From: Candidatus Omnitrophota bacterium
GTDB taxonomy: Bacteria; Omnitrophota; Gorgyraeia; Gygaellales; Profunditerraquicolaceae
Assembly (NCBI GenBank): GCA_026387265.1
Contig: JAPLLZ010000030.1
Span: 1 to 34,985 of the forward strand
DNA: 34,985 nt
Direction of reading: 5' to 3'
The position numbers were made by a program, and so were the translations under genes. Below, in pieces: positions 22,231 through 28,809 of this stretch. How positions within the stretch are numbered: the stretch's first letter is position 1; every line of letters begins with the position of its first letter. The notes beneath the pieces are model-generated. The model was not told the origin of the DNA, ran no database searches, and saw only the letters and a list, made by a program, of their open reading frames with translations.

Positions 22231-22770
22231 ATGAAAATTGTATTTTTAGATCGAGATGGAGTAATTAATAAATACCCCGGGGATAAGTTATATGTAACTT
22301 CACTCAGGAAGTTTAGATTTTTGCCAAACGCTAAAAAAGCAATTGCTTTGTTGAGCAAGTCGGGGTGTAAAGTATTTGTTGCTTCTAATCAGGCAGGGGT
22401 AGGTAAAGGTACTTACAGCCAAAAAACCCTTGATCTTATAACGGCTAAAATGCTTACTAGTATCGAAAAAGAAGGTGGTTTGATCAATCAGGTTTATTAT
22501 TGTACTCATCGTAAAGAGGCGGATTGTTCCTGCCGTAAACCAAAACCAGGATTATTGAAAAAGGCGGCGCATGATTCTGGTTTTAATTTAAAGGCTGCTT
22601 ATTTTATTGGCGATACAATACGTGATGTATTTACTGCGCAGGCATCCGGATGTAAGTCTATATTGGTATTAAGCGGCAAAGAAAAACTAGCTAATCAGAA
22701 AAACTGGGAAACCAAGCCGGATTTTGTATTTAAGGATCTCCTTGCAGCCGCAAAATTTTTAACTAAATGA
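22231..22770 (+). CDS. gmhB: D-glycero-D-manno-heptose 1,7-bisphosphate 7-phosphatase
   Basis: A 179-residue HAD phosphatase. The catalytic Asp7-x-Asp9 is in FLDRDGVIN, ASNQAGVGKG is HAD motif II, and FIGDTIRDVF is motif IV. The zinc-binding insert that separates GmhB from other HADs is present: Cys91-x-His93, Cys99, Cys101 in YYCTHRKEADCSCRKPKPG. It removes the 7-phosphate in ADP-heptose synthesis, consistent with the two GT9 heptosyltransferase-like genes upstream. No Shine-Dalgarno is visible before the ATG (ATTTACTGCT), and a palindrome lies 25 nt upstream. A histidinol-phosphatase role is possible for this family, but the context favours heptose. Confidence 0.92.
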   Translation: MKIVFLDRDGVINKYPGDKLYVTSLRKFRFLPNAKKAIALLSKSGCKVFVASNQAGVGKGTYSQKTLDLITAKMLTSIEKEGGLINQVYYCTHRKEADCSCRKPKPGLLKKAAHDSGFNLKAAYFIGDTIRDVFTAQASGCKSILVLSGKEKLANQKNWETKPDFVFKDLLAAAKFLTK

Positions 22771-23858
22771 AAGTACTGATTGTTCATGCTTCAGCCGGGG
22801 CTGGGCACCGCCGAGCGGCAGAAGCAATATATAATTATTTAAAAGAAAACTCCCCCGAGTTGGATTTAGTGCTTTTAGACGCTCTGGATAAGACTAATGC
22901 TCTGTTCAAATTTGATTATACTAAAGGCTATTCGTTTTTAGTTCATTATGCTACGAGAATATGGCATTGGGCTTTTTTAGTCACAGATTTTAAATTTCTG
23001 CGGCCGATTAGCCGGTTTCTGGCACGCTTAATTAATTGTATTAATTCACAAAGGCTAGTTCATTATTTTGTTCACGAGAATCCCGATGTAATTGTTTCTA
23101 CCCATTTTCTTCCTTCTGAGTTAGCGGCGGGCCTAAAAAAGAAACATAAGATAAACTCAAAATTAATCACAGTGATTACGGATTATGGTGTACACCCTTT
23201 TTGGATTTCTGCCGGAACGGATCTGTATGTGGTGGCGTCGGATTTTACAAAGCAAAGATTAGTAATGGAAGGGGTAGATGCCGGGAAAATTAGTGTTTTG
23301 GGGTTACCTTTTGACCCAAAGTTTTTAAGGCATTTTGACCGCAGAGTGGTTTGTCATAAAATCGGAATCGACCATAAGCAGTTTACTGTTTTGTTAATGA
23401 CCGGTTCTTTTGGTTTAGGGCCGCTAGAAGAAATTGTGGAGGCTTTACATAAGGATTGTCAGGTTTTAGTGGTTTGCGCCGGTAATAAGAAGCTTTATAA
23501 CAAGTTACTTAAAAAGAACCTAGAGAACGTTAAAGTGTTTGGTTTTATTTCCAACACTGAAGAATTAATGGCTGCATCTCAAGTAATTATCACTAAGCCA
23601 GGCGGTTCAACAATTACCGAGGTGTTAATTATGGAACTTCCGGTTGTGTTTATTAGCGCTATACCGGGACAGGAAACAGCCAATGTAAAAGCATTGTCAG
23701 AATATGGTATTGGGATAACTCCTAAAAACATCGAAGAAATTAGAAATTTTGTTTTGGATCTAAAAAATAATCCTCAAAAAATTTTAGAGTTAAGGCAGAA
23801 GATTAGGGAAGTACAAAAGCCGTTTGCGTGTAAGGAGCTGGCTAGTGTTATACGCTAA
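22767..23858 (+). CDS. MGDG-synthase/UgtP-like glycosyltransferase (GT28)
   Basis: A 363-residue GT-B protein. The N-terminal domain has VLIVHASAGAGHRRAAEAI (the HxSxGxGH motif of monogalactosyl- and processive diglucosyl-diacylglycerol synthases), then VDVxxLDAL-like text and DVIVSTHFLPSELAAGL. The C-terminal GT28 domain has VLLMTGSFGLG and ITKPGGSTITEVLIMELPVVF. The related MurG shares the fold but not the N-terminal motif. Predicted to glycosylate diacylglycerol or another lipid at the inner leaflet. Coupled to gmhB by ATGA and overlapping priA by 14 nt. Confidence 0.88.
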   Translation: MKVLIVHASAGAGHRRAAEAIYNYLKENSPELDLVLLDALDKTNALFKFDYTKGYSFLVHYATRIWHWAFLVTDFKFLRPISRFLARLINCINSQRLVHYFVHENPDVIVSTHFLPSELAAGLKKKHKINSKLITVITDYGVHPFWISAGTDLYVVASDFTKQRLVMEGVDAGKISVLGLPFDPKFLRHFDRRVVCHKIGIDHKQFTVLLMTGSFGLGPLEEIVEALHKDCQVLVVCAGNKKLYNKLLKKNLENVKVFGFISNTEELMAASQVIITKPGGSTITEVLIMELPVVFISAIPGQETANVKALSEYGIGITPKNIEEIRNFVLDLKNNPQKILELRQKIREVQKPFACKELASVIR

Positions 23859-25641
23859 TGTGGTATTAGGTTTACCAATTGAAGGCCCGTTTGACTATCT
23901 TGTGTCCGTGGATTTAGAAAGCAAAATTAATATTGGAGTAAGGGTTTGGGTAAATTTCCGCAACAAAAAAGTAGTTGCCTACGTAGTAGAATTAAATAAT
24001 AAAACTAAAATTAAGCAAGTCAAAGAGATCCTTTCGGTTATTGATACTTATCCGGTTTTGAATGAATCGCTGCTTTTATTAACTAAAAGATTAGCGCAAT
24101 ACTATTGTTGTTCTTGGGGGGAGGCGATTGATGCTGCGCTTCCGGATGAATTGAGAAAAGGTAGCAAGGTTGATTTGGTTTCTTCGGATTCGGTGTTGCC
24201 TCAGGATGATTGTCCCCGTTCGCTTTTTGTCCAGGGTTTTGACCGGATGCCGGTTTACCTGAGAGAAATTAAAAAATCCCTAGTGGAAAAAAAGTCAGTA
24301 ATTTTTTTATGCAGCAATATTGTAATGGTGAAAAAAGTAGAAGAAGCTGTCCGGGATAGTTTAGGGGTAGGAGTTTTTATTGCTTACCGTAAACAGCCCG
24401 ATGAAGCAGAAGTTTGGAGTAAGATTAAGCAGGCAGATAACTGTGTGGTGGTGGGGACGCGTTCAGGTATCTTTTCTCCGGTTAATAATCTGGGATTAAT
24501 AATTATCGATCAAGAGGATGATCAGGTATATAAACAGGAACAGGTTCCGCATTATCATGCCCGGGAAGTTGCCTTGATGCGTGCGCAGATTCAGGGGGCA
24601 AAGGTGGTTTTGGGCAGTCATTGTTTGTCCCTGGAAAGCTACTATTCTTTACAGAAAGATAAATTAGACCTGGAAGTTATTCCTGCGAAACTTACTTATC
24701 CTCAGGTTAAGGTTATTGATGTGCGCCGGTTAGCCTATGCGGAAAGAAAAAACCGTTCTATGTTTTCTAAGTTTTTGGTTGATGCGATACAAATCGCTCT
24801 GCTTGAAAAAGGTAAAATTTTGTTAGTGATTAATCGTAAAGGTTTTGCGACCACGGTTGCCTGTCATAACTGCGGCGTAGCTTTAAAATGCCCGCGTTGC
24901 AATATTAATTTGGTATTGCATTTCGATGGTAATGAATTAAAATGCCACCATTGTAATTTTAAAATGCCGTTACCTAAGATCTGCCCGAACTGTAGCGCCG
25001 GGTATATTAAATATTTTGGTCTAGGTACGGAAAAAGTAGAAAGTGAATTGGCTAGGATTTTTCCGCAGGCGCGTATCGGCCAGGATATTGTTGTGGCCAC
25101 TGGCGCAGTATTTAGTCAACAAGAGCTAAACTTTGATTTGATTGGAGTAATGGTAATTGATGATTCGCTTAACCGGGTGGATTATCGTGCAGCAGAAAAG
25201 ACTTTCTTTATGCTTTCCGGTATTATTAATCTGACTTCTAAAAAGGTGATTATTCAGAGCTCTAATTCCGGCCATCATTGTTTCCAGGCTTTGATTAAGA
25301 ATGACCCGCAACTTTTTTTAAAAGAAGAGCTTAAGCAGCGTAGGCAGATGAACTTTGTTCCTTTTAGTCACATGATTCTGCTAAAAATGCGGGGAAGGGA
25401 TTTGGATAAAGTTAAAAAATCTGCCCAGAGTTTATTTCAAAGACTAAGTGAAATAAAAACTAACAGCTTAAAACTGCTTTCTCTTAATCCGGGGCAGCCG
25501 GCTAAGCTGCGAGGTAATTTTTATTATCAGATATTGATGCGTACCCCGAATGTGGAGAGGGCAAACCGTTTTATAAAATTACACTTAAAAGATGGGCATT
25601 ATTCAGGTATAATAGTGACTGTAGATGTAGATCCGGTTTAG
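23845..25641 (+). CDS. priA: PriA-like replication restart protein with lost helicase motifs
   Basis: 598 residues, against about 730 in E. coli PriA. The N-terminal 3'-DNA-binding domain (LYANVVLGLPIEGPFDYLV) and winged-helix region (YYCCSWGEAIDAALP) are well kept, as is the cysteine-rich zinc region (CHNC, CPRC, CHHC, CPNC) and the C-terminal domain. The helicase motifs are not: Walker A GSGKTEVYL reads DRMPVYL at 133-139, the DEEHD box reads DQEDD at 222-226, GTQMLAKGHD is unrecognisable, and the motif VI arginines are replaced (SGIINLTSKK). GTRSGIF and YKQEQVPHYHAREVAL survive. Start GTG 23845 was chosen over TTG 23824: AAGGAG at 23832-23837 is 7 nt away and the N-terminus then matches the family. 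Probably a structural primosome loader without ATPase activity. Confidence 0.9.
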   Translation: MLYANVVLGLPIEGPFDYLVSVDLESKINIGVRVWVNFRNKKVVAYVVELNNKTKIKQVKEILSVIDTYPVLNESLLLLTKRLAQYYCCSWGEAIDAALPDELRKGSKVDLVSSDSVLPQDDCPRSLFVQGFDRMPVYLREIKKSLVEKKSVIFLCSNIVMVKKVEEAVRDSLGVGVFIAYRKQPDEAEVWSKIKQADNCVVVGTRSGIFSPVNNLGLIIIDQEDDQVYKQEQVPHYHAREVALMRAQIQGAKVVLGSHCLSLESYYSLQKDKLDLEVIPAKLTYPQVKVIDVRRLAYAERKNRSMFSKFLVDAIQIALLEKGKILLVINRKGFATTVACHNCGVALKCPRCNINLVLHFDGNELKCHHCNFKMPLPKICPNCSAGYIKYFGLGTEKVESELARIFPQARIGQDIVVATGAVFSQQELNFDLIGVMVIDDSLNRVDYRAAEKTFFMLSGIINLTSKKVIIQSSNSGHHCFQALIKNDPQLFLKEELKQRRQMNFVPFSHMILLKMRGRDLDKVKKSAQSLFQRLSEIKTNSLKLLSLNPGQPAKLRGNFYYQILMRTPNVERANRFIKLHLKDGHYSGIIVTVDVDPV

Positions 25642-25794: not shown

Positions 25795-26739
25795 ATGAAG
25801 ATAATATTTTTCGGAAGTGCACATTTTGGAGTTCTAGCGCTGAAGGCTTTGATCAAAAGCCAGCATGAATTAGTCTGTGTGGTAACTCAGCCGGATAAAC
25901 AAAAAGGAAGGCACCTGCAGTTAGCAGCTACGGATGTTAAAAATACGGCTCTTTCCTGCGGGCTTAACATTTTCCAGCCGGAGAATATTAATAATATAGA
26001 GAGCGCAAATTTTTTAAAAAAACTGGATGTAGATATTTTCGTAATTGCCGCTTATGGCCAGATATTATCCCAGGAGATTTTGGATATCCCTAAGATTATG
26101 CCGGTGAATATTCATGCTTCGCTTCTGCCGCGCTATCGGGGAGCAGCTCCGATTAACTGGTCGATAATTAATGGTGATAAGAAAACCGGGGTGACTATAA
26201 TGTATGTAACCCGGAAAATGGATTCCGGCCCGATAATTATACAAAAAGAAGTTAAAATTGAAGATAAGGATACCGCAATCAGTCTGGAGGAAAAGTTAAG
26301 CCTTTGCGGATCCGGGCTTTTAATGGAGGCGTTGGCTATTATTGATAGCCGTAATTATCGTTTATTGGATCAAGATGAAGAGAAAGTGGTTTATGCCCCA
26401 AAAATGAAAAAAGAGATTGGTTTAATTGATTGGGATACTCCCGCGGTGAATATCCATAATCAGATAAAAGGGGTAGTGCCTTGGCCGGGTGCGTTTACCA
26501 GCTATCGCCGTAAGTTACTTAAGATATTTCAGGCAGAAGTTTTGCCGATATTCCCCGGGCAGAAACCGGCTGCCGGACAGATAATCAGGGCAGATAAGCA
26601 TGGTATTATTGTGGCATGTTCCAGAGGTTTTTTAGAAATTAAAGAACTGCAGCTGGAAGCGGGAAAGCGTATGTCAGCACAAAATTTTGTTATTGGGCAT
26701 AAGCTTATTGTAGGCGAAATTTTGGGCAAAGATAAATAA
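25795..26739 (+). CDS. fmt: Methionyl-tRNA formyltransferase
   Basis: A 314-residue enzyme formylating Met-tRNAfMet for translation initiation. The N-terminal formyl-transfer domain starts MKIIFFGSAHFG. The catalytic set Asn105, His107 (VNIHASLLPRYRGAAPINW) and Asp143 (KMDSGPII) is complete. The C-terminal OB-like domain includes VVPWPGAFTSYR. AGGAATTG precedes the ATG. It often follows priA and def in bacterial genomes; def is absent here and a hairpin repeat separates the two genes. Confidence 0.96.
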   Translation: MKIIFFGSAHFGVLALKALIKSQHELVCVVTQPDKQKGRHLQLAATDVKNTALSCGLNIFQPENINNIESANFLKKLDVDIFVIAAYGQILSQEILDIPKIMPVNIHASLLPRYRGAAPINWSIINGDKKTGVTIMYVTRKMDSGPIIIQKEVKIEDKDTAISLEEKLSLCGSGLLMEALAIIDSRNYRLLDQDEEKVVYAPKMKKEIGLIDWDTPAVNIHNQIKGVVPWPGAFTSYRRKLLKIFQAEVLPIFPGQKPAAGQIIRADKHGIIVACSRGFLEIKELQLEAGKRMSAQNFVIGHKLIVGEILGKDK

Positions 26740-26832: not shown

Positions 26833-27858
26833 ATGCCAGAATTAAGAAAAGATCCGATTATAGGTAGATGGGTAATTATTGCCACTGAGCGAGCACGCCG
26901 CCCTGATCAATTTGTCGGTCATATTAAAGACCAGGAGGATTTGTCGGCTTGTCCGTTTTGTGAAGGAAGGGAAGGTAAAACCCCTCCTGAGATTTATGCT
27001 ATCCGCCCGCGTAATTCTACACGTAACGAACCGGGGTGGGATCTACGTGTTATTCCGAGTATTTCTCCTTTTTTAAGAGTTGAGGGTGACCTGGATCGTC
27101 GCGGAAACGGCGTTTATGATGTAATGAATGGCGTGGGTGCGCATGAGATTGTCATTGAGACTAATCAGCACATCGCTAATATGGCGGATTTAAGCGAAGA
27201 GCAGATTACCCGGGTACTCAATTGTTATTCTGATCGGATAACGGATTTAGAAAAAGATACGCGCTTAAAATATGTTTTAGTATTTAAAAATTACGGCAAG
27301 GGTTCAGGTAGCACAGGAATCAGGCATGCGCGCAGCCAGTTGATTGCTACGCCGGTTAATCCTAAGCGGGTAAAAGAGGAGTTGGCCGGCGCGCGGCTTT
27401 ATTATGAGTATCATGAGCGTTGCGTATTTTGTGATTTAATCAAGCAGGAGTTAGCGCAAAAAGAACGCGTGATTTTAGATTTTGATGGTTTTGTTGCGGT
27501 TAGCCCGTTTGCTGCGCGGTTTCCTTTTGAGACCTGGATTCTACCTAAGAAGCATTGTTGCGATTATACCTGTATGGATGGGGAATCTAGAAGAAATCTA
27601 GCCCGGGTGCTTAAAGCCGTGCTTTTAAAGTTAAAAATCGGGTTGAATGACCCTGATTATAATTACATTATTCATACTGCGCCTTTCCGCAGGCAGAAAA
27701 TGGGCTACTGGAAGACGATTGACCAGGATTATCACTGGCATATTGAAATTATGCCGCGTTTAACTAAGGTGGCGGGTTTTGAGTGGGGTACGGGTTTTTA
27801 TATTTGTCCGCTCCCGCCTGAAGAGACAGCTAAGTTTTTAAGAGAGGTAAAGATTTAA
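26833..27858 (+). CDS. GalT-like nucleotidyltransferase with HAR in place of the catalytic HPH motif
   Basis: A 341-residue HIT-superfamily protein of the galactose-1-phosphate uridylyltransferase type. It has the N-terminal zinc Cys40-x-x-Cys43 (ACPFC), GAHEIVIE (zinc His), and the C-terminal IDQDYHWHIEIMPRLTKVAGFEWGTGFYI, all as in GalT. The active-site HPHSQ, whose second His is the uridylylated nucleophile, reads His165-Ala-Arg167-Ser-Gln here, in GSGSTGIRHARSQL. So the zinc-ligand His is kept but the nucleophile is replaced by Arg. Normal uridylyltransferase chemistry is doubtful; a phosphorylase-type or regulatory role is possible. A related gene follows immediately, its ATG overlapping this stop by one base (TAATG). 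Confidence 0.85.
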   Translation: MPELRKDPIIGRWVIIATERARRPDQFVGHIKDQEDLSACPFCEGREGKTPPEIYAIRPRNSTRNEPGWDLRVIPSISPFLRVEGDLDRRGNGVYDVMNGVGAHEIVIETNQHIANMADLSEEQITRVLNCYSDRITDLEKDTRLKYVLVFKNYGKGSGSTGIRHARSQLIATPVNPKRVKEELAGARLYYEYHERCVFCDLIKQELAQKERVILDFDGFVAVSPFAARFPFETWILPKKHCCDYTCMDGESRRNLARVLKAVLLKLKIGLNDPDYNYIIHTAPFRRQKMGYWKTIDQDYHWHIEIMPRLTKVAGFEWGTGFYICPLPPEETAKFLREVKI

Positions 27859-28809
27859 TGGGTGAATTAAGAAGGGATCCGGTGGTTGGCCGTTGGGTGA
27901 TTGTAGATACGGATCACCCGAAGAAGCCGGGCGATTTTAAGTATGAGCAGTATATTCCGGGTGGAGGGTTATGCCCGTTTTGTTATGGTAATGAATTTAT
28001 GACTCCGCCTGAGATAAGTTGTTTTCGCGATCCGAGTACAGCGGTTAATACTCCTGGTTGGCAGGTACGCGTGGTGGCAAATAAATTCTGATATGTCTAA
28101 CGGAATAGGGGCGCATGAAGTTTTAATTGAAAGCCCTTACCATAATAAAGATATTTCAGACCTTTTACCTCAGGAAATTGAAAGTTATCTGAAGATGTGT
28201 TGTATGCGCACAGCGGATTTAATAAAAGATAGCCGCTTTAAATATATTATGGTTTTCCGTAATTATGGATCAGCCGCCGGCGCTTCCTTAGAGCATCCGC
28301 ATACGCAATTGGTGGCTTTACCAATGGTACCCAAAAATGCGCTGGAGGAGATCCATGGAGCGCAAGCTTATTATAATTACCGGGAGCGTTGCATCTACTG
28401 TGATATTATTCGTCAGGAGATTGCGGATAAAGAAAGAATTATTTTAGAAAATAAGTATTTTATATCTTTTTGCCCGTTTGTTTCCCGTTTTCCGTTTGAG
28501 ATTATGATTATGCCTAGGCAACATAGCGGTTATTTTTATCACATCTCTGCGGAAGAGACTGCAGCCCTGGCACAGATTTTAAAGGACACCCTATCAAAAC
28601 TAAAAAAAGTATTTGTAAATTTGTCATATAATTATATAATTCATTCTGCGCCTATTAATGGCGAAGTCGGCGTAGAGTATTACCATTGGCATCTTGAAAT
28701 TATGCCTAAGTTAACACAAGTTGCAGGTTTTGAGTGGGGGACCGGTTTTTACCTAGATCCAACCTCTCCTGAATTAGCCGCGCAATATTTAAAAGCCGTA
28801 AAAGACTAA
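27858..28809 (+). pseudogene. galT: GalT paralogue broken by a ~50-nt internal deletion and frameshift
   Basis: The 5' piece (27858-28091) encodes MGELRRDPVVGRWVIV, the zinc pair CPFC, and ends ANKF then TGA. The 3' piece in another frame (from 28090, DMSNGIGAHEVLIES) carries the intact active site ASLEHPHTQL and the C-terminal HWHLEIMPKLTQVAGFEWG. Compared with the upstream paralogue, about 17 residues (the segment like PFLRVEGDLDRRGNGVY) are missing between F and DMSNG, leaving one stray T: a ~50-nt deletion that shifts the frame. The 3' piece could start at ATG 28093 but would lack the zinc Cys pair. So this is either a pseudogene that kept a normal catalytic motif, a recent mutation, or an assembly error. 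Confidence 0.8.

Follow-up and report, generated by a model that had tools for sequence, protein, structure and literature searches.

The window, by which we mean the whole stretch of 34,985 nucleotides of Candidatus Omnitrophota DNA analysed here, carries a priA-like gene at positions 23845..25641 (stop codon included; + strand, as for its parts and its two neighbours below). The frame is intact, stays open over 598 codons and encodes a 598-aa protein that we describe as a PriA pseudohelicase. It begins at a GTG in the same position as the start in relatives, several of which have ATG there. The protein matched the PriA equivalog model TIGR00595 with 362.6 bits (cut-off 230.35) and scored 435 bits with the ordinary PriA models PRK05580.1-3, compared with at most 178 bits for the actinobacterial PRK14873 models. 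Upstream, a diglucosyl-diacylglycerol-synthase-like glycosyltransferase gene (22767..23858) runs 14 bases into priA, and downstream lies fmt, encoding methionyl-tRNA formyltransferase (25795..26739; TIGR00460, 283.7 bits). Among loci with enough flank, fmt follows priA at 98 of 106 pseudohelicase loci and at 26 of 54 intact loci; because this downstream neighbour is conserved, we take the window gene to be the ordinary priA locus rather than a paralog, which supports orthology. When the window's own genome was searched with PriA models, the other helicase matches were Mfd, RecG and UvrB, and a family-wise search for a second PriA in this draft genome (87.5% complete) found none. An Rfam search of the window gave no match. 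Beyond fmt lie two adjoining galactose-1-phosphate-uridylyltransferase-like ORFs (window positions 26833-27858 and 28093-28809), the second apparently without its N-terminal ~100 residues.

Each helicase motif was compared with that of E. coli PriA. The original prediction had described Walker A, the DEEHD box, the motif V region and the motif VI arginines as replaced within an intact frame, and the alignment bore this out. Motif I (Walker A; 24226..24252) reads FVQGFDRMP as opposed to LAGVTGSGKTE; GVTGSGKT has become ..QGFDRM, with loss of the P-loop glycines and the changes K230R and T231M. In motif II (Walker B; 24502..24522), IIDQEDD stands in place of VIDEEHD, turning DEEHD into DQEDD (E321Q) while leaving the neighbouring E322. 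Motif III (24610..24636) is LGSHCLSLE versus LGSATPALE, a change of GSATP to GSHCL. A deletion of ~24-30 residues in lobe 2 precedes motif V (25096..25128; ATGAVFSQQEL), where the E. coli sequence GTQMLAKGHHF is aligned with ATGAVFSQQE. Lastly, motif VI (25216..25242) is SGIINLTSK rather than TQVAGRAGR, so that the arginine fingers of QVAGRAGR are replaced. Overall, the window protein is ~70 aa shorter than its intact relatives (~667 aa). The broader statement that every core helicase motif had been lost therefore holds for motifs I, II, III, V and VI but has to be narrowed, since motif IV (NRKGF, 24832..24846; pattern NR[KR]GF) and E322 are kept.

The domains outside the motor present a different picture. 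Three Pfam domains were matched above cut-off and in order: the 3'-end-binding domain or 3'BD (residues 1-105, 23845..24159; PF17764, 4e-26), the zinc ribbon (PF18319, 2e-10) and the C-terminal domain (25360..25635; PF18074, 2.8e-12). All eight zinc cysteines of the cysteine-rich region or CRR (C340-C383, 24862..24993) are present, and the predicted retention of these three parts was thus confirmed. In E. coli, the zinc region is needed for primosome assembly. The 3'BD shares F16, D17 and Y18 (23890..23898) as well as K61 with E. coli PriA. Position 17 is aspartate in 106/108 pseudohelicases, as in E. coli, and in only 5/54 intact Omnitrophota PriAs; from this alignment, PriA may have come to hold the nascent 3' end more tightly upon motor loss. 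The winged helix, which had also been reported as retained, is not there. A short linker (24160..24225) takes its place, with 15 residues in the window protein, ~30 in intact Omnitrophota PriA and 95 in E. coli PriA. Because the winged helix is missing from intact Omnitrophota PriAs as well, its loss is older than and separate from that of the motor, and the domain is not a defining feature of PriA in Omnitrophota.

Structure modelling, one of the checks originally proposed, yielded a confident PriA fold (AlphaFold with an alignment of 81 locus sequences; mean pLDDT 91.6, pTM 0.89). The best PDB match of the model was 8fak (8fak_H; E. coli PriA with PriB on fork DNA) at a TM score of 0.88 over the query, and the first nine PDB matches were all PriA. 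According to the model, the dead lobes still adopt the fold of a helicase core. The window protein resembles E. coli PriA (8fak, 6dcr, 6dgd) in fold, in its eight zinc cysteines and, save for the winged helix, in domain order, whereas the E. coli protein is a working 3'-5' helicase with a winged helix and an SSB pocket.

The close homologs came from MAGs labelled Candidatus Omnitrophota. A PriA model matched at E < 0.001 in all 286 Omnitrophota genomes sampled, with two very different strengths, some of the weak matches being other helicases. Of 170 PriAs that we extracted, those of nearly full length were aligned; f-numbers (f1, f54 and so on) are anonymous family codes and L-numbers denote loci. 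Fifty-four of these PriAs are intact and have every motif (K230, G583, R584 and R587 in 54/54). Intact proteins such as L063, L066 and L076 are orthologs of the window PriA, often have the same fmt neighbour and likewise have no winged helix, but differ from it in their complete set of helicase motifs and, mostly, in having W83. The motifs are lost in 108 aligned PriAs of the window's and related families, in four of f54, a family of another class, and in one extreme member of f11. Aligning PriA from related genomes had been suggested as a check, and finding the same pattern in 108 proteins, against 54 with every motif, indicates that the motif loss is not chance. The same features recur in many independent assemblies, which rules out an assembly artefact. 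K230 is replaced by arginine in 75/108 pseudohelicases and in 28/28 of the window's family, and arginine or lysine occupies the P-loop lysine position in 85/108. In motif VI, R584 is kept in 2 and R587 in 6 of the 108, while 101 retain the E322 that adjoins motif II.

Motor-less PriA spans the window's genus, family and order and extends to many further families of the same class; the PriA of other Omnitrophota is fully armed and ~667 aa long. Nearly all genomes of the genus carry the motor-less form, at ~60-79% identity to the window PriA where full length, with 44-49% across the family and 33-43% across the order. PriA was present in every near-complete relative searched (30/30), and in every pseudohelicase genome the degenerate protein gives the best PriA match, so no second armed PriA is hidden there. 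On an RpoB tree, the main pseudohelicase clade comprises families f1-4, 6-8, 20, 23, 27, 29, 31, 32, 37, 38, 39 and 44. Three groups of motor-less PriA, namely f54, part of f27 and a single f38 genome, have lost the entire cysteine-rich zinc region as well (L131, L132, L139, L140, L145-L150). The most eroded PriA encountered is that of the f11 genome examined (L198, G057:C1:149800-152600), in which the helicase motifs are unrecognisable and FDY and the zinc cysteines are kept. Two PriAs with all helicase motifs, L182 (f51) and L186 (f58), have lost some zinc cysteines.

In the window's genus, where most pairs have a dS close to or exceeding 1, dN/dS of priA is 0.142, and a pair with an unsaturated dS of 0.26 gave 0.163. 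Regional dN/dS was compared between pseudohelicases and intact relatives of similar divergence. The helicase motif columns reached 0.184 in pseudohelicases versus 0.031 in intact proteins, a roughly six-fold difference, and the lobes outside the motifs 0.140 versus 0.091. The corresponding values were 0.109 and 0.149 for the 3'BD, 0.132 and 0.157 for the C-terminal domain, and 0.079 and 0.072 for the CRR, which is the most constrained part in the window's lineage. Since the motif columns differ so strongly while the binding domains are still constrained, relaxation is concentrated on the motor. Judged by these substitution patterns, purifying selection for a non-helicase function, as the original prediction had proposed, is strongly supported by a dN/dS of 0.14, order-wide conservation and relaxation at the motifs. 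A second intact priA together with relaxed selection on this one had been named as evidence that would speak against such a function; a second priA was looked for and none was found, and the low dN/dS points the other way.

PriA of D. radiodurans is a proven pseudohelicase, with no ATPase, no unwinding and near-normal binding of forks and ssDNA, and there is evidence that it binds DnaB (PMC4504706). According to work cited in that paper, K230R alone renders E. coli PriA ATPase-dead, and ATPase-dead PriA still assembles primosomes (PMC4504706). Like the Deinococcus protein, the window protein is a PriA ortholog in which the Walker A lysine is arginine, motif II is changed and the DNA-binding parts are kept, without PriB or DnaT. 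Two of the features that mark D. radiodurans PriA as a pseudohelicase are found here too, with Walker A and B disrupted in a gene that is under selection and is the sole PriA found. Unlike Deinococcus PriA, however, the window protein belongs to the Omnitrophota, with an origin that is independent as far as tested; it also lacks motifs V and VI and the winged helix, has a shortened lobe 2, and has lost the SSB-pocket tryptophan in a clade without the SSB tip. The inactivity and the fork and DnaB binding of the Deinococcus protein are biochemical results, whereas the window protein is known from its sequence and model. Actinobacterial PriA also lacks helicase motifs. It has been called "smaller and very divergent" (PMC1193525), and the window protein is similarly short and divergent. 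Its far better score on ordinary than on actinobacterial PriA models (435 versus at most 178 bits) argues for a loss separate from that in Actinobacteria, and it nests with Omnitrophota PriA, in agreement with the suggestion that this shorter protein, from a Gram-negative lineage, is a case of its own.

We also searched for the partners of PriA in replication restart. DnaB in the window's genome is present and ordinary. DciA was found in 65/80 genomes, motor-less and intact kinds together; that of the window's own genome is a weak match (27.4 bits versus a cut-off of 24). DciA was matched as well in the control genomes Deinobacterium, Thermus and Corynebacterium, which represent groups with known or suspected motor-less PriA. 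DnaD, a further check that had been suggested, was absent from 30 genomes (the window's and its relatives), and a search for IstB/DnaC-type proteins (DnaC/DnaI) gave no match in the window's own genome. Elsewhere, the IstB/DnaC-type matches were mostly proteins of ~450 aa, which by their length may be DnaA, and the few true IstB/DnaC-type ones were in distant families. In C. crescentus, DciA has been suggested to act in concert with PriA (PMC9825169). In the simplest mechanism, a passive PriA would mark the fork and a loader based on DciA would accept it. The presence of DciA in most motor-less genomes and in the controls, together with the lack of DnaD in the window's relatives, suggests a link between loader type and motor loss.

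The C-terminal tip of SSB is highly conserved among bacteria (PMC12143593), and the pocket that receives the SSB tail in K. pneumoniae PriA consists of Trp82, Tyr86, Lys370, Arg697 and Gln701 (PMC5531588). The window protein has R82 (24088..24090) at the position of this tryptophan (W83 in E. coli); with the pocket tryptophan lost, PriA lacks one or more of its known contacts. Tryptophan is found at the W83 position in 46/54 intact PriAs, in 7/12 motor-less PriAs outside the main clade and in 0/101 within it. The main SSBs (SSB loci L287-L373) end in PF in 38/39 intact genomes, 12/12 motor-less genomes outside the main clade and 0/34 main-clade genomes. Because the PF tip is still present in some lineages with motor-less PriA, motor loss and tip loss are separate events. 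In 28/34 main-clade genomes, the SSB has an acidic tail with a tryptophan within its last 18 residues, for example STWLAESEDEAHEG in the window's genome (L295, G000:C56:15020-15436) and EDIAWEE in f27, and one second SSB copy (f39) keeps DDTPF. When a correlation with PriA W83 was attempted by independent contrasts, the SSB tip was found to change only about three times on the tree, without independent replication. From these alignments, the losses of the SSB tip, of PriA W83 and of the motor appear as a coincidence in the main clade. We tentatively suggest, while thinking it somewhat doubtful, that the SSB hub of the main clade has been rewired, with the PF tip exchanged for an acidic tail with an internal tryptophan (EDIAWEE, STWLAESEDE), PriA left without motor and pocket tryptophan, and restart bypassing the canonical SSB-tail contact. 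If true, this would be a rare case in which a widely conserved interaction peptide, the SSB PF tip, has been replaced. In the f11 genome with the most eroded PriA, SSB still ends in LPF.

We consider it probable, at about 0.8, that the window PriA is the only PriA of its genome and acts as a pseudohelicase, recognising forks and recruiting DnaB to them. The residues for ATPase and helicase function are lost, the fold and binding domains are kept under purifying selection, and DnaB, DciA and RecG are all present. The protein would have no ATPase activity. Its 3'BD pocket would grip the 3' end of the nascent leading strand at a stalled or repaired fork, while the dead helicase lobes, the zinc region and the C-terminal domain would hold the fork. 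PriA would recruit the replicative helicase DnaB without ATP hydrolysis, with DciA probably serving as the loader. The lagging strand would not be cleared by PriA, and another helicase, such as RecG, would substitute by exposing single strand where required. Another restart factor could be missing from the 87.5%-complete draft genome.

The weightiest objection is that the protein still binds DNA but has been repurposed as a scaffold outside replication restart, where it might, for example, protect forks or act in recombination. The lost SSB-pocket tryptophan in a clade without the SSB tip suggests changed interactions, and some lineages have lost the zinc region. Nevertheless, we regard this as unlikely, since the gene is single-copy with no other PriA found, DnaB and DciA are present, the zinc region is the most constrained part in the window's own lineage and the Deinococcus precedent still binds DnaB. 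A cryptic ATPase, in which non-canonical residues would let the altered site still bind ATP or hydrolyse it slowly, is favoured by the conserved E322 and by the arginine or lysine at the P-loop lysine position. It is highly improbable given the loss of the P-loop glycines, motif II, motif V and both motif VI arginines, and motif columns whose rate of evolution is six times that in intact relatives.

Were the helicase dispensable, the gene might instead be a decaying pseudogene that is simply drifting; many otherwise invariant residues have indeed been replaced and the protein is shortened. The frame, however, is open here and in almost every relative, dN/dS is 0.142 in the genus and 0.163 in the unsaturated pair, the gene is present in 30/30 near-complete relatives and the predicted model is well folded. 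With dN/dS far below 1 and conservation across the order, we consider decay refuted, leaving it almost no probability. It is hardly conceivable that an actinobacterial or Deinococcus-type pseudohelicase was acquired horizontally, even though the outcome is similar and the Walker A lysine is arginine in Deinococcus too. Transfer from Actinobacteria was rejected on the model scores, and the protein groups with Omnitrophota PriA (in a tree whose sole outsider is E. coli) and shares its fmt neighbour with intact relatives.

A PriA pseudohelicase in restart raises the question of why bacteria keep the PriA motor at all. Our literature search, which covered few subscription journals, returned no paper pairing PriA with Omnitrophota; the single match for PriA and Omnitrophica concerns Akkermansia. 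The PriA pseudohelicase is already known as a kind, and what is new concerns the phylum, how deep the loss reaches and how often it recurs, the zinc regions that were lost in addition, and the coincidence with the SSB tip. Beyond what the original prediction contained, Deinococcus PriA is already a proven pseudohelicase and the trait is spread over a large part of the Omnitrophota. Loss of the PriA helicase is thus no longer a quirk of Deinococcota and Actinobacteria. A single phylum holds armed, motor-less, and motor-less zinc-less PriAs, probably through several separate losses, and comparison across this range allows the indispensable parts of PriA to be read off: where a good deal of the protein has gone, the 3'-end domain and the C-terminal domain are still there.

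The number of losses was assessed on trees of one gene each, with SH-aLRT support, from MAG genomes that are incomplete. On the RpoB tree (76 genomes), the motor-less state needs seven changes, at least three of them forced by well supported branches. Families f21 and f50 fall near the base of the main clade, f33/f45/f48 make up another group, f43 is paired with an intact family and f54 lies in a different class. The PriA tree, built without the motif columns, needs four changes; there, f5 and f41 fall in the main clade, f45 lies beside the intact f34 (SH-aLRT 98) and f43 is among intact PriAs. An AU test did not reject a single clade of all pseudohelicases but f54 (p 0.107), and the number of losses is therefore given as a range. 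The trees point to at least two losses, with four to seven more likely. RpoB of the main clade is itself ~100 aa shorter (~1135-1180 versus ~1240 aa; rpoB loci L239-L277 versus L202-L237), and the rpoB model matches it only from position ~296, indicating that its N-terminal part is strongly changed.
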